Both the position numbers and the translations under genes were made by a program. This document shows positions 17,912 to 21,957 of a stretch of 50,585 bases of DNA, one piece after another; within the stretch, counting starts at the first letter, position 1, and each line of letters starts with the position of its first letter. This DNA is from Deltaproteobacteria bacterium (GTDB lineage Bacteria; Desulfobacterota; Binatia; DP-6). Location: the NCBI GenBank assembly GCA_005879585.1, contig VBKG01000335.1:1-50585 (forward strand), in the 5' to 3' direction. Under the pieces are notes generated by a model that saw only the letters and a list, made by a program, of their open reading frames with translations, did no database searches and had not been told where the DNA came from.

Positions 17912-18571
17912 TCAGCGGCCGGCCGCGACCACGTCCAACGCCGCGGAGAGGTAGGCGGCCCGGTAGCGCAACACGCGAGCCAGATACTCGCGCGTTTCTG
18001 CGATTGGCGGGACGCCACCGGCGTCTTCGACGCGTTGGGTGCCGGCGTTGTACGCGGCGACCACGAGCGGCAGGTTCCCGCCGTACCGGTCGAGGAGCAT
18101 GCGCAGGTGCCGGCAGCCGCCCTCGATGTTGTCGCGCGGGAGGAAGACGTTGCGGACCTGATGGGACGCGGCCGTCTGCGGCATCAGCTGCATGAGACCG
18201 AGCGCGCCTGCGCGGGATACCGCGGTCCGGTCGAAATCGGACTCGGCCTTGATGACGGCCTTCACGAGCGCGTATTCCACCCCGTGGCGCGCGGCGATGT
18301 CCCGGATGAGACCGTCGTAGACCGTCGCGTCGGCTCGGGGAAGCGGCCGCGACAGCAGCGCGGGAAACCATCGCGGCCGCCCCGGCACCAGCATCGGCGT
18401 TCCCGGCGGCAGCGGTCGCTCGCGGATCACCAGCCGCGAGCCCGGAACCGCCGACACGTTCGTGAAGTGCCGGACGCCCCGTCCGTCGAGGTACGAGTAA
18501 ATGTCGGCGGAGGCCGCCGGGACGAAGCCCAGGACCATCGCCAGGACCGCCTCCCCCGTCCCCGGCCGCAT
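17912..18571 (-). CDS. Lytic transglycosylase (SLT domain)
   Basis: A 219-residue exported murein hydrolase that cleaves glycan strands to 1,6-anhydro products. A signal peptide (residues 1-22, ending AASA) is followed by a DUF4124-like stretch (DIYSYLDGRGVRHFTNV). The SLT fold has catalytic Glu110 in KAESDFDRTAVSRAGALGLM and the downstream motifs LMQLMPQTA, NIEGGCRHLRMLLDRYGG and AAYNAGTQRVE. The ATG at 18571 was chosen because it directly precedes the signal peptide. It is followed at 14 bp by pgsA and is divergent from nadB, with 85 bp between the two starts. Confidence 0.9.
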   Translation of the reverse strand: MRPGTGEAVLAMVLGFVPAASADIYSYLDGRGVRHFTNVSAVPGSRLVIRERPLPPGTPMLVPGRPRWFPALLSRPLPRADATVYDGLIRDIAARHGVEYALVKAVIKAESDFDRTAVSRAGALGLMQLMPQTAASHQVRNVFLPRDNIEGGCRHLRMLLDRYGGNLPLVVAAYNAGTQRVEDAGGVPPIAETREYLARVLRYRAAYLSAALDVVAAGR

Positions 18572-18656
18572 CGCGGCCACGATACGGAACGCCGCTCGGG
18601 AACGCAAACCATCGGCGTCGCTTGACCGGGCCCGCAGGGCACGCGAAGCTCGCCAC

Positions 18657-20279
18657 GTGCCCGTGGAAGGCGACCTCCTCGTCATCGGCAGCGGCATCGC
18701 CGGACTCACCTGCGCCCTCGAGTGTGCCCGCCATGCGCGGGTCGTCCTGGTCACGAAGGACCGTCTCCCGGAGAGCTCGAGCCAGTACGCCCAGGGTGGC
18801 ATCGCGTCGGTCTGGAGTCCGGAGGACAGCTTCGAATCGCACATCGACGATACGCTCGCGGCGGGCGCAGGCCTCTGCCGCCGCGAGGTCGTCGAGACCG
18901 TCGTGCGCGAAGGACCGGCCGGCGTGCGGCGCCTGATCGCGCTCGGCGCGAACTTCGACGTGCGCGGGGACCCGGAGGAGCGCGAGTACGATCTCGGCCA
19001 GGAGGGCGGCCATTCGCGCCGCCGCATCCTCCACGCGCTCGACGCGACCGGCCACGAGATCATCCGCGCCCTCACGGAGGCGGTGCGCGGGGAACCTTCC
19101 ATCACCGTCCACGAGAACGCGCTCGCCGTGGATCTGCTCGTTGATCGCGACGGGGCGAATCCGGCGTGCTGGGGCGCCTACGTGCTCGATCGCGACACGC
19201 GGCGCGTCCACCGTTTTCTCGCCCGCGCGACGTTCCTGTGCAGCGGCGGCGCCGGCAAGGTGTATCTGTACACGTCGAACCCCGACGTCGCGACCGGCGA
19301 CGGCGTCGCGATGGCGTACCGGGCGGGCGCGCCGGTGGCCAACATGGAGTTCTTCCAGTTCCACCCGACGTGTCTCTACCATCCCGCCGCAAAGTCCTTC
19401 CTCCTGACCGAGGCGCTGCGCGGCGAGGGGGCGATCCTCCGGCGGCCTGACGGCGAGCCGTTCATGGCGCGCTACGACGAACGCGCGGAGCTCGCGCCGC
19501 GGGACGTCGTCGCCCGCGCAATCGACAACGAGATGAAGGTGCACGGGTTCGAGTGCGTCTACCTCGACATCAGCCATCGGGACGCCGATTGGGTCCGCCG
19601 TCGCTTTCCCACCGTGTACGAGCGCTGCCTGCAGTTCGGCTTCGACCTCGGCCGTCAGCCGGTCCCGGTCGTCCCGGCCGCGCACTACTCGTGCGGCGGC
19701 GTCGTGACGGACGTCCACGGCCGGACGGCGATCGAGCGCCTCTATGCATGCGGCGAGGTGGCGTGCACGGGTCTGCACGGCGCCAACCGGCTCGCGTCCA
19801 ACTCGCTGCTCGAGGCGCTGGTCTTCGGCCGTCGCGCCGCCGCCCACGCGCTCGACGCGCTCGCGACGGATCGGCACCAGCCGCCCGTGATCCCTCCCTG
19901 GGACCCGGGACGGGCCACGGACAGCGACGAGTCCGTCGTCGTCGCGCAGAACTGGGACGAGATCCGCCGCTTCATGTGGAACTACGTGGGCATCGTTCGC
20001 ACGGATCGTCGCCTCGCGCGGGCACGCGAGCGGATCACGCTGCTTCTAAACGAGATCCGGGAGTACTACTGGGACTTCCTGCTGACGAGCGACCTGGCCG
20101 AGCTCCGGAACATCGCCACGGTCGCGGAGCTCATCATCACGTGCGCGGCGAGCCGGCGCGAGAGCCGCGGGCTCCACTCCACGATCGACCATCCGCACAT
20201 CGAGGCGGCATGGGCGCACGACACCGTCGTGCGGCGGCGGGACGGTGAGCGGCCCGCCCTGCTGGCGCAGCGCGCCTAG
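18657..20279 (+). CDS. nadB: L-aspartate oxidase
   Basis: A flavoprotein that oxidises L-aspartate to iminoaspartate, the first step of de novo NAD synthesis (fumarate reductase/succinate dehydrogenase flavoprotein superfamily). The FAD dinucleotide motif is at the N-terminus (DLLVIGSGIAGLTCALE). SSQYAQGGIA, EFFQFHPTCLY, the active-site Arg region LTEALRGEGA and HYSCGGVVTD all match the family. The C-terminal helical domain is present. It is 540 residues from a GTG at 18657; a second GTG at 18663 is an alternative, and upstream in-frame codons would add a non-homologous Arg-rich stretch. No nadA or nadC is nearby. Confidence 0.93.
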   Translation: MPVEGDLLVIGSGIAGLTCALECARHARVVLVTKDRLPESSSQYAQGGIASVWSPEDSFESHIDDTLAAGAGLCRREVVETVVREGPAGVRRLIALGANFDVRGDPEEREYDLGQEGGHSRRRILHALDATGHEIIRALTEAVRGEPSITVHENALAVDLLVDRDGANPACWGAYVLDRDTRRVHRFLARATFLCSGGAGKVYLYTSNPDVATGDGVAMAYRAGAPVANMEFFQFHPTCLYHPAAKSFLLTEALRGEGAILRRPDGEPFMARYDERAELAPRDVVARAIDNEMKVHGFECVYLDISHRDADWVRRRFPTVYERCLQFGFDLGRQPVPVVPAAHYSCGGVVTDVHGRTAIERLYACGEVACTGLHGANRLASNSLLEALVFGRRAAAHALDALATDRHQPPVIPPWDPGRATDSDESVVVAQNWDEIRRFMWNYVGIVRTDRRLARARERITLLLNEIREYYWDFLLTSDLAELRNIATVAELIITCAASRRESRGLHSTIDHPHIEAAWAHDTVVRRRDGERPALLAQRA

Positions 20280-20283
20280 GAGG

Positions 20284-20542
20284 CCGACCCGAGATACATC
20301 TCGGGTCGGGACCGGACGCGAGAGTGGAACGCTCGGTGACCCGCGCGCGCCGCATGTCGCGGCCGGCGAAAGCCGGCGCGACAGACGAGGTACGCCCGCC
20401 CCGCCGACGCCTCTGTGCGAGGCCTGTCCAGCAAGCCGAAGGCTGGCGGCTTCACCGCTGCGGCGGCATCCGCCGATCGAGCGATGCGCGCCGGGCGCGT
20501 ACCCCGCATGCCGCTCCGACCCGAGACATGAGTCTCGGGTCG
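20284..20542. repeat. Element bounded by two near-identical palindromic hairpins
   Basis: The left hairpin is a perfect 12-bp stem (20284-20295 with 20298-20309, 2-nt loop). The right hairpin is a perfect 11-bp stem (20517-20527 with 20532-20542, loop ATGA). Both stems contain CGACCCGAGA. Inside lie a 6-bp stem closed by a GAAA tetraloop (20362-20377) and a further stem near 20428-20452. The element fills the gap between the convergent genes nadB and purF. It may be a REP/BIME-like repeat, a bidirectional terminator or a structured RNA. I noticed no other copy in this window. There is no T tract as in a classical terminator. Confidence 0.7.
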
Positions 20543-20547
20543 CGCGC

Positions 20548-21957
20548 CTAGCGCTCGCGCGCCTCGAACAGCTGGAACTGGCGAACGGGCACCTCCACGG
20601 GCGGCGCGATGGGATAGCGCCCCGTGAAGCACGCATCGCAGAAGCCCGCCCGCCGGCCGCCGGCGAACGTGTACAGGCCGGCCAGGCTGAGATACGCGAG
20701 GGAGTCCGCGCCGAGGTACTGCTGGATGTCGCCCACGCCGTGCGACGACGCGATCAGCTCCTCCCGCGTGGGCGTGTCGATCCCGTAGAAGCATGGGTGC
20801 GTCGTTGGCGGCGAGCTGATCCGCACGTGAACCTCGCGCGCGCCGGCCTGGCGGATCATGTGCACGAGCTTGCGGCTGGTGGTCCCGCGGACGATCGAGT
20901 CGTCCACCACGATGACGCGCTTGCCGGCGAGCACCTCGCGCAGCGCGTTCAGCTTCACCTTGACGCCGAAGTTGCGGATGGAGCTCGAGGGCTCGATGAA
21001 GGTCCGCCCGACGTAGTGATTGCGGATGAGGCCCATCTCGAACGGCAGCCCGGCCTCCTCCGCGTAGCCGATGGCGGCCGGGAGGCCCGAGTCCGGGACG
21101 GGGATGACGATGTCGGCCGGCACGCCGCTCTCGCGGGCGAGCTGCCGGCCGAGCTCCTTGCGCGCCTCGTACACGTTGCGCCCGAATACCTCGCTGTCGG
21201 GCCGCGCGAAGTACACGTACTCGAACACGCAGTGATGGCTCTCGCTCGCGGGGAACGGGCGCACCGAGTCGACGCCTCGCTCGCTGACGATCACGATCTC
21301 CCCCGGGTCGATCTCGCGCTCGAGACGCGCGTCGACGAGGTCGAGCGCGCACGTCTCCGAGGCGATCACGACGGCATCGCCCACGCGCCCGAGGACGAGC
21401 GGCCGGAAGCCCGCCGGGTCCCGCGCGGCGATCACCCGGTCCTCGGTCATGAAGACCAGCGAATACGCGCCGCGCACCTGGCTGAGCGCGTCGATGATGC
21501 GCTCGAGCAGCGTCGTCTCCGCGGACCGCGCGATCAGGTGGACGATGACCTCGCTGTCGACCGTCGACTGGAAGATCGCCCCGCGCGCCTCGAGCTTGGC
21601 TCGCAGCTCGTCCGCGTTCACCAGGTTCCCGTTGTGCGCGATCGCGAGCGCGCCGTGCGCCCACGACACCACGAACGGCTGACAGTTCTTCAGCACCGTC
21701 GAGCCGCTCGTCGAGTAGCGGTTGTGGCCGATCGCGAGGTGGCCGCGGAGCCGCGCCAGGATGTCGTACTGGAAGATGTCGGCGACGTGGCCCATGCCGC
21801 GGTGGCTGATCAGCGCCTCGCCGTTGGACGCGACGATGCCCGCCGACTCCTGCCCGCGGTGTTGCAGGGCGTAGAGGCTGAGGTAGGCGAGCGTCGCGGC
21901 CTCGGGATGGCCGTAGACGCCAACGACACCGCACTCCTCGTGGAACTTGTCGAACAT
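20548..21957 (-). CDS. purF: Amidophosphoribosyltransferase
   Basis: Catalyses the first committed step of purine synthesis (PRPP + glutamine to phosphoribosylamine). It has 469 residues. The N-terminal Ntn glutaminase carries an eight-residue propeptide before the nucleophile Cys9 ([11 protein letters not shown]). The PRTase loop [14 protein letters not shown] follows. Cysteines in [10 protein letters not shown] and [12 protein letters not shown] fit the iron-sulfur-containing Bacillus-type enzyme. A GGAGG site precedes the ATG by about 5 nt. It is the last gene of the pur run, 47 bp after purL. Confidence 0.95.

Follow-up and report, generated by a model that had tools for sequence, protein, structure and literature searches.

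The question raised by this locus is what fills the gap between two convergent genes, nadB and purF, in the window (that is, the whole stretch of 50,585 nucleotides analyzed, from a Deltaproteobacteria bacterium): a structured RNA, a terminator, or a mobile repeat. The identities of both genes were confirmed with curated models, and the 268 bp separating their stop codons consist wholly of the element, so that the claim of an exact fit, made in a first, sequence-only reading of this DNA, was borne out. The two perfect stems of 12 and 11 bp described there were likewise recovered to the base, as was a hairpin with a GAAA loop in the core. The features of the locus are as follows:

18501-20279, plus strand: nadB, L-aspartate oxidase (TIGR00551/PRK09077), start codon uncertain
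20276-20279, plus strand: left insertion junction CTAG, including the nadB stop TAG (20277-20279)
20276-20383, plus strand: left end unit (covariance model R1, 98.7 bits, own-genome search)
20278-20282, plus strand: left terminal motif AGGAG
20284-20309, plus strand: left outer hairpin, perfect 12-bp stem, with covariation
20355-20383, plus strand: left inner hairpin TGTCGCGGCCGGC-GAAA-GCCGGCGCGACA, 12 pairs and one bulged G, with covariation
20512-20513, strand not applicable: internal deletion junction, 65 bp of the full-length copies missing here, right inner hairpin gone
20517-20542, plus strand: right outer hairpin, perfect 11-bp stem
20544-20551, minus strand: right end, degenerate AGGAG (here AGGCG) plus CTAG, including the purF stop (CTA at 20548-20550, i.e., TAG on the minus strand)
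20548-21957, minus strand: purF, amidophosphoribosyltransferase (TIGR01134)

The core had been described as structured and 207 bp long; the structure holds, while the size needs correction, since 208 nt separate the two 10-bp-armed hairpins and this copy is short of 65 bp, a deletion which accounts for its missing right inner hairpin. The fold of the window element has a z-score of -4.8 as RNA and -4.3 as DNA.

The element belongs to a repeat family. In the 5.28-Mb assembly of the source genome (G000, 625 contigs), the hairpin pattern CGACCCGAGA-N2-10-TCTCGGGTCG has 93 matches, against none for the reversed control, an excess well beyond chance, and these hairpins mostly form inverted pairs ending an element of about 333 bp. 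A BLAST search with the window copy returned about 40 core copies, one of them 100% identical over 235 bp. According to an alignment of 28 copies, the full-length element runs from a CTAGGAG-hairpin with loop TACA to a hairpin with loop CATGAG followed by CTCCTAG; its left and right portions of about 111 bp are inverted relatives of each other (about 75% identical), each end unit of about 107 nt comprising two hairpins. Among the 34 hairpin pairs in the fetched G000 loci the commonest spacing is 273-275 nt, and both outer hairpins are retained in many copies with internal deletions. The copies are dispersed and extragenic, lying at the 3' ends of many different, unrelated genes. Their near identity points to a recent spread, and the one-base indels that distinguish them argue against a conserved reading frame. 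Some G000 loci (L077-L082) carry what appears to be an older subfamily, with 5-nt loops of the GAAG/CTTCG type and more divergent cores, which has the outer hairpin in common; at L080:2501-2525 a lone 25-nt family hairpin, possibly a remnant, stands between convergent genes where both sister species, G001 and G002, have larger elements.

The hairpins are maintained by compensatory change. Across 28 units from six genomes both the outer and the inner hairpin covary: 98.8% of the hairpin cells are paired and double changes occur in 8 of the 24 pairs, a result reached in none of 500 shuffles, although the units were gathered with a stem-shaped pattern allowing several bases at variable positions. 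The arms CGACCCGAGA, CGACCCAAGA, CGAGCCAAGA, CGCCCCAAGA, CGGCCCAAGA and CGATCCAAGA are each paired with a matching second arm, and a full-length copy folds into one long interrupted hairpin (z-score of -9.9 as RNA). The covariation points to recognition of a single-stranded hairpin rather than of a duplex site. The absence of a second copy and of covariation had been named beforehand as grounds for refutation; the 93 hairpins and the covariation contradict both.

The family is restricted to one lineage. The covariance model search of the genome and its relatives that had been recommended at the outset covered 7 genomes of the GTDB family, of which 6 have the unit, and 138 others from the class, of which none does; G005 has at least 27 units and G003 no element. 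Neither viral contigs nor plasmids gave a match to the element. A contig search for the hairpin pattern found it elsewhere in Actinobacteria, Chloroflexi and one Clostridia MAG, once per genome or record, and these matches look like chance palindromes; in the literature, the stem sequence matched only unrelated oligonucleotides.

The comparison with the sister species provides evidence of mobility. Orthologous junctions were located through chained searches with C-terminal segments of the proteins on either side and were then read. Twenty G000 sites could be located in G001 and/or G002, and in 19 of them at least one relative lacks an element. In the empty junctions the convergent genes are 1 to 71 nt apart, stop codons included, and several overlap in CTAG or CTAA: for instance, G001 reads ggtggCTAGgctgc where the filled G000 site reads ggccgCTAGGAGCG...GCCTCCTAGgcggcg, empty sites read ggCTAGgc in G001 and ggCTAGcg in G002, and at L066, a junction adjoining an IF-1-like gene, G002 has cggCTAGcgc. 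The nadB-purF junction itself is empty in G002 (TTAGCGGTCTAA) and is occupied in G001 by a different element of 183 bp with the same CTAGGAG end. At 6 of the 20 junctions a relative carries a different or a related element, which marks junctions of this kind as hot spots. The element is thus mobile, as presence and absence between sister species demonstrate, and we are almost certain that it is a mobile repeat of the REP/MITE type. The initial proposal of a REP/BIME-type or MITE-like repeat therefore stands as regards copies, inverted doublets, covariation and empty sites, and has to be amended in that the tag is AGGAG and not that of a canonical GTAG REP.

Other small elements share these surroundings. 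The G001 element of about 183 bp, with ends CTAGGAGGCTGTCCGAGTAACG...CGGTTACTCGGACAGACTCCTAG, lies at the nadB-purF junction (L222:425-604, G001 C96) and at a few other places (L218:1590-1768 and L219:1235-1409). A third, multi-hairpin element of about 122 bp, starting with AGGAGCGCGACCCAAGATTCTCCGCGCGCG, is found at gene junctions in G000 and G001 (L207:261-384, L211:942-1065, L208:3103-3203, L040:4543-4656, L181 and L186), and a suspected IS at C392/C388/C600 turned out to be another non-coding element of about 122 bp.

The ends of the copies reveal a site preference. Their consensus, (CT)AGGAG, is separated from the stem by one or two nt. Among 73 ends from G000, conservation increases toward the interior of the element (C 64%, T 66%, A 74%, G 77%, G 84%, A 82%, G 86%), and in G001 the CT is present in 24 of 25 ends and the bases after it are nearly invariant. 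The tetranucleotide CTAG is rare in this DNA, at 0.38 to 0.51 of the Markov expectation. Many of the non-CTAG ends differ only in the first two bases (CC, GC, GT, TG, TA, TT, AT) and keep AGGAG intact, some ends vary within AGGAG too, and TA is present at most ends overall. Where an end departs from CTAG, it differs from the other end of its copy, which argues against a 4-bp duplication; for this reason a target duplication of CTAG, or of TA, was down-weighted after serious consideration. Together with the variation in the first two bases, this favors, without proving it, an insertion of AGGAG...CTCCT at CT^AG with no duplication. The insertion boundary lacks a clean base-for-base empty site, and point mutations could mimic or hide a duplication of TA or CTAG.

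The same ends bear on the neighboring genes, as CT|AGGAG...CTCCT|AG supplies TAG stops to them, here to nadB and purF, both of which are left intact. In G000, 41 called genes read into an end of the element; the stop codon is TAG in at least 29 of them, in 22 cases at precisely -8, versus 27% TAG in background genes. By gene orientation, 11 copies in G000 were called convergent, 7 tandem and none divergent. We suggest that the element is a non-autonomous, REP-doublet-like repeat (REPIN/BIME) made of two inverted units of about 107 nt, each bearing AGGAG and a perfect hairpin of 10-12 bp at its end and a second hairpin inside. Its insertion would be preferred at CT^AG, a rare tetranucleotide present where convergent genes share or abut their stop codons, and the ends AGGAG...CTCCT would rebuild CTAG on both sides, so that each gene would retain or recover a TAG stop, with a hairpin following a few nt later. 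A single-strand transposase (Y1/HUH, RAYT-like) acting in trans would recognize the outer hairpins as DNA structures, and any effect on mRNA 3' ends would be a by-product. To this reading as a whole, in which a REPIN-like, non-autonomous element depends on a single-strand transposase (Y1/HUH) that acts in trans, we assign a probability of about 0.6.

Concerning the mobilizing enzyme, RAYT-like genes are indeed abundant: 21 matching stretches occur in G000, and they are also common in G001 and G002, the match to NF047646 (E = 5e-11) lying below its curated cut-off. RAYT-like Y1 transposase genes and fragments (TWGGRRPGAGRK...DDHVHL) are expanded in these three genomes (L104-L109, L283-L312). 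The REP-associated tyrosine transposase that the sequence-only reading had advised looking for could not be linked to the element: in two overlapping sets of 6 and 30 loci, within the limits of a fragmented assembly, no RAYT-like gene is flanked by the family hairpin, and no RAYT or other transposase lies between or beside family hairpins in the loci examined. The search of G005, an element-rich genome, gave no homologue of the queried RAYT, and G003 has RAYT homologues without the element. At the fetched unpaired ends of G000 no autonomous copy, with a transposase between the hairpins, was seen, and such a copy may be missing because of the fragmentation into 625 contigs. Given the lack of a hairpin-flanked RAYT and of a homologue in G005, the anatomy of the element leads us to infer the enzyme: AGGAG adjoins a hairpin that covaries, CT lies alongside, and a duplication is not evident. 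The single-strand DNA mechanism and the lack of target duplication are inferred as well.

A different mobilizer has then to be considered, namely a DDE transposase, IS630-like or similar, moving the element as a MITE into the TA of CTAG with duplication of TA or CTAG, the hairpins being merely palindromic terminal repeats. Most copies do have CTAG on both sides, TA is always possible as a duplication, and the IS630 copies of G000, G002 and G003 also have CTAG on their flanks. However, the IS630 ends (GTGG...) differ from those of the element, with no shared terminal repeats; no PF13358 gene is present in G001 or G005, both element-rich; the non-CTAG ends of one copy do not match; and covariation of a perfect hairpin is not expected for a duplex-binding site. 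We consider this explanation unlikely, though it is the strongest of the rivals. IS630 itself was rejected as the mobilizer because of its different ends and its absence from the two element-rich genomes. The IS630-family copies, with GTGG/GTGC ends and CTAG on their flanks (L201:124-1296, L202:1371-2507 and L203:1377-2494), apparently represent an independent use of the CTAG target.

It might also be supposed that selection, and not insertion preference, has kept hairpins at convergent ends, the element terminating or stabilizing both transcripts. Hairpins 4-5 nt past the stop codons of both genes in many copies fit this idea, as do the survival of both outer hairpins in many internally deleted copies and the lone hairpin between two stops at L080. 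Against it, neither hairpin of the window copy is followed by a T run and the terminator scan made no call, in keeping with the early statement that this is not a simple terminator; the same gene pairs in the relatives have few nt between their stops and no such hairpin; some copies lie between tandem genes; and the near-identical copies point to recent spread. This explanation thus appears improbable. A T run and a terminator call are lacking, and the relatives have no such element at these genes. The data give no support to a role in the expression of nadB or purF, though the element may affect transcript 3' ends. As for a conserved structured RNA (an sRNA or a cis-regulator) of nadB/purF, which the sequence-only reading had also entertained, the strong predicted fold and the covariation speak for it, but it is very improbable, as the element has no link to any gene type and lies at the 3' ends of unrelated genes, the same junction is empty in G002 and differently filled in G001, and Rfam gave no match to the element even at E 1 (its sole match in the window being a tRNA elsewhere). 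A riboswitch finds no support either.

Returning to the REPIN-like reading, the comparison makes both empty and filled sites visible for a REP-like element, ties the familiar placement of REPs at gene 3' ends to the choice of a target (CTAG at stops), instead of or besides a regulatory role, and adds an uncultured soil lineage, whose tag is unusual, to those in which REP doublets are known. A broader generalization is conceivable, and we advance it tentatively: lineage-specific single-strand mobile repeats might land safely at overlapping convergent CTAG stops and rebuild TAG on both sides, and AGGAG-ended elements with unrelated cores might repeatedly take the same junctions in sister species. 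Because two sister species have different AGGAG-ended elements at nadB-purF and a third has none there, target choice versus selection becomes testable at this junction.

Among known systems, TA-duplicating MITEs such as RUP or Correia are small, non-coding, provided with inverted-repeat ends and inserted around TA. The element resembles them in all these respects and differs in that no matching transposase ends were found and its terminal perfect hairpins covary. With IS200/IS605 (TnpA, Y1/HUH) it has in common a subterminal hairpin preceded on its 5' side by a guide-like motif, CT where cleavage is presumed to occur, and no evident duplication; unlike them, it has symmetric inverted ends and no tnpA inside. 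The end statistics would favor an IS200/IS605-like mechanism. The REPINs of Pseudomonas fluorescens SBW25 (PMC3116915) are closer: there, as here, inverted palindromic units replicate as one, with compensatory changes and many extragenic copies. Indeed, the inverted palindromic doublet, the many extragenic copies and the compensatory change (with the reservation concerning the stem pattern used to collect the units) are all found. REPIN units are about 70-110 bp apart with a proximal RAYT (PMC3116915), whereas here the whole spans about 333 bp, with two hairpins per unit, an AGGAG tag, a CTAG target at convergent stops and no associated RAYT found. As in a REPtron, RAYT-like genes are present in the genome, and in the loci examined none is flanked by the same REPs. 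The GTAG REP/BIME/TIR families of Y1 transposases (PMC3733652) also lie between convergent or tandem ORFs, have termini that often give TAG and include heterodimers whose loops differ; long TIR families containing self-complementary tracts have been described as well (PMC3733652). The element departs from GTAG REPs in its AGGAG tag, with no GT[AG]G tetranucleotide at 0-2 nt on the 5' side of its hairpin, and no Y1 transposase gene was flanked in any locus examined. The behavior of the element nevertheless has precedent, since the Y1 nucleases associated with REPs (TnpA_REP) make their cut at CT or CA beside the hairpin, under the guidance of the tetranucleotide on its 5' side (PMC8266576), and GTAG REPs, which are reported to lie between convergent or tandem ORFs, often contribute the TAG stop (PMC3733652). 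The AGGAG tag, the two hairpins per unit and the larger size make it a variant of the documented REP families rather than a member of one.
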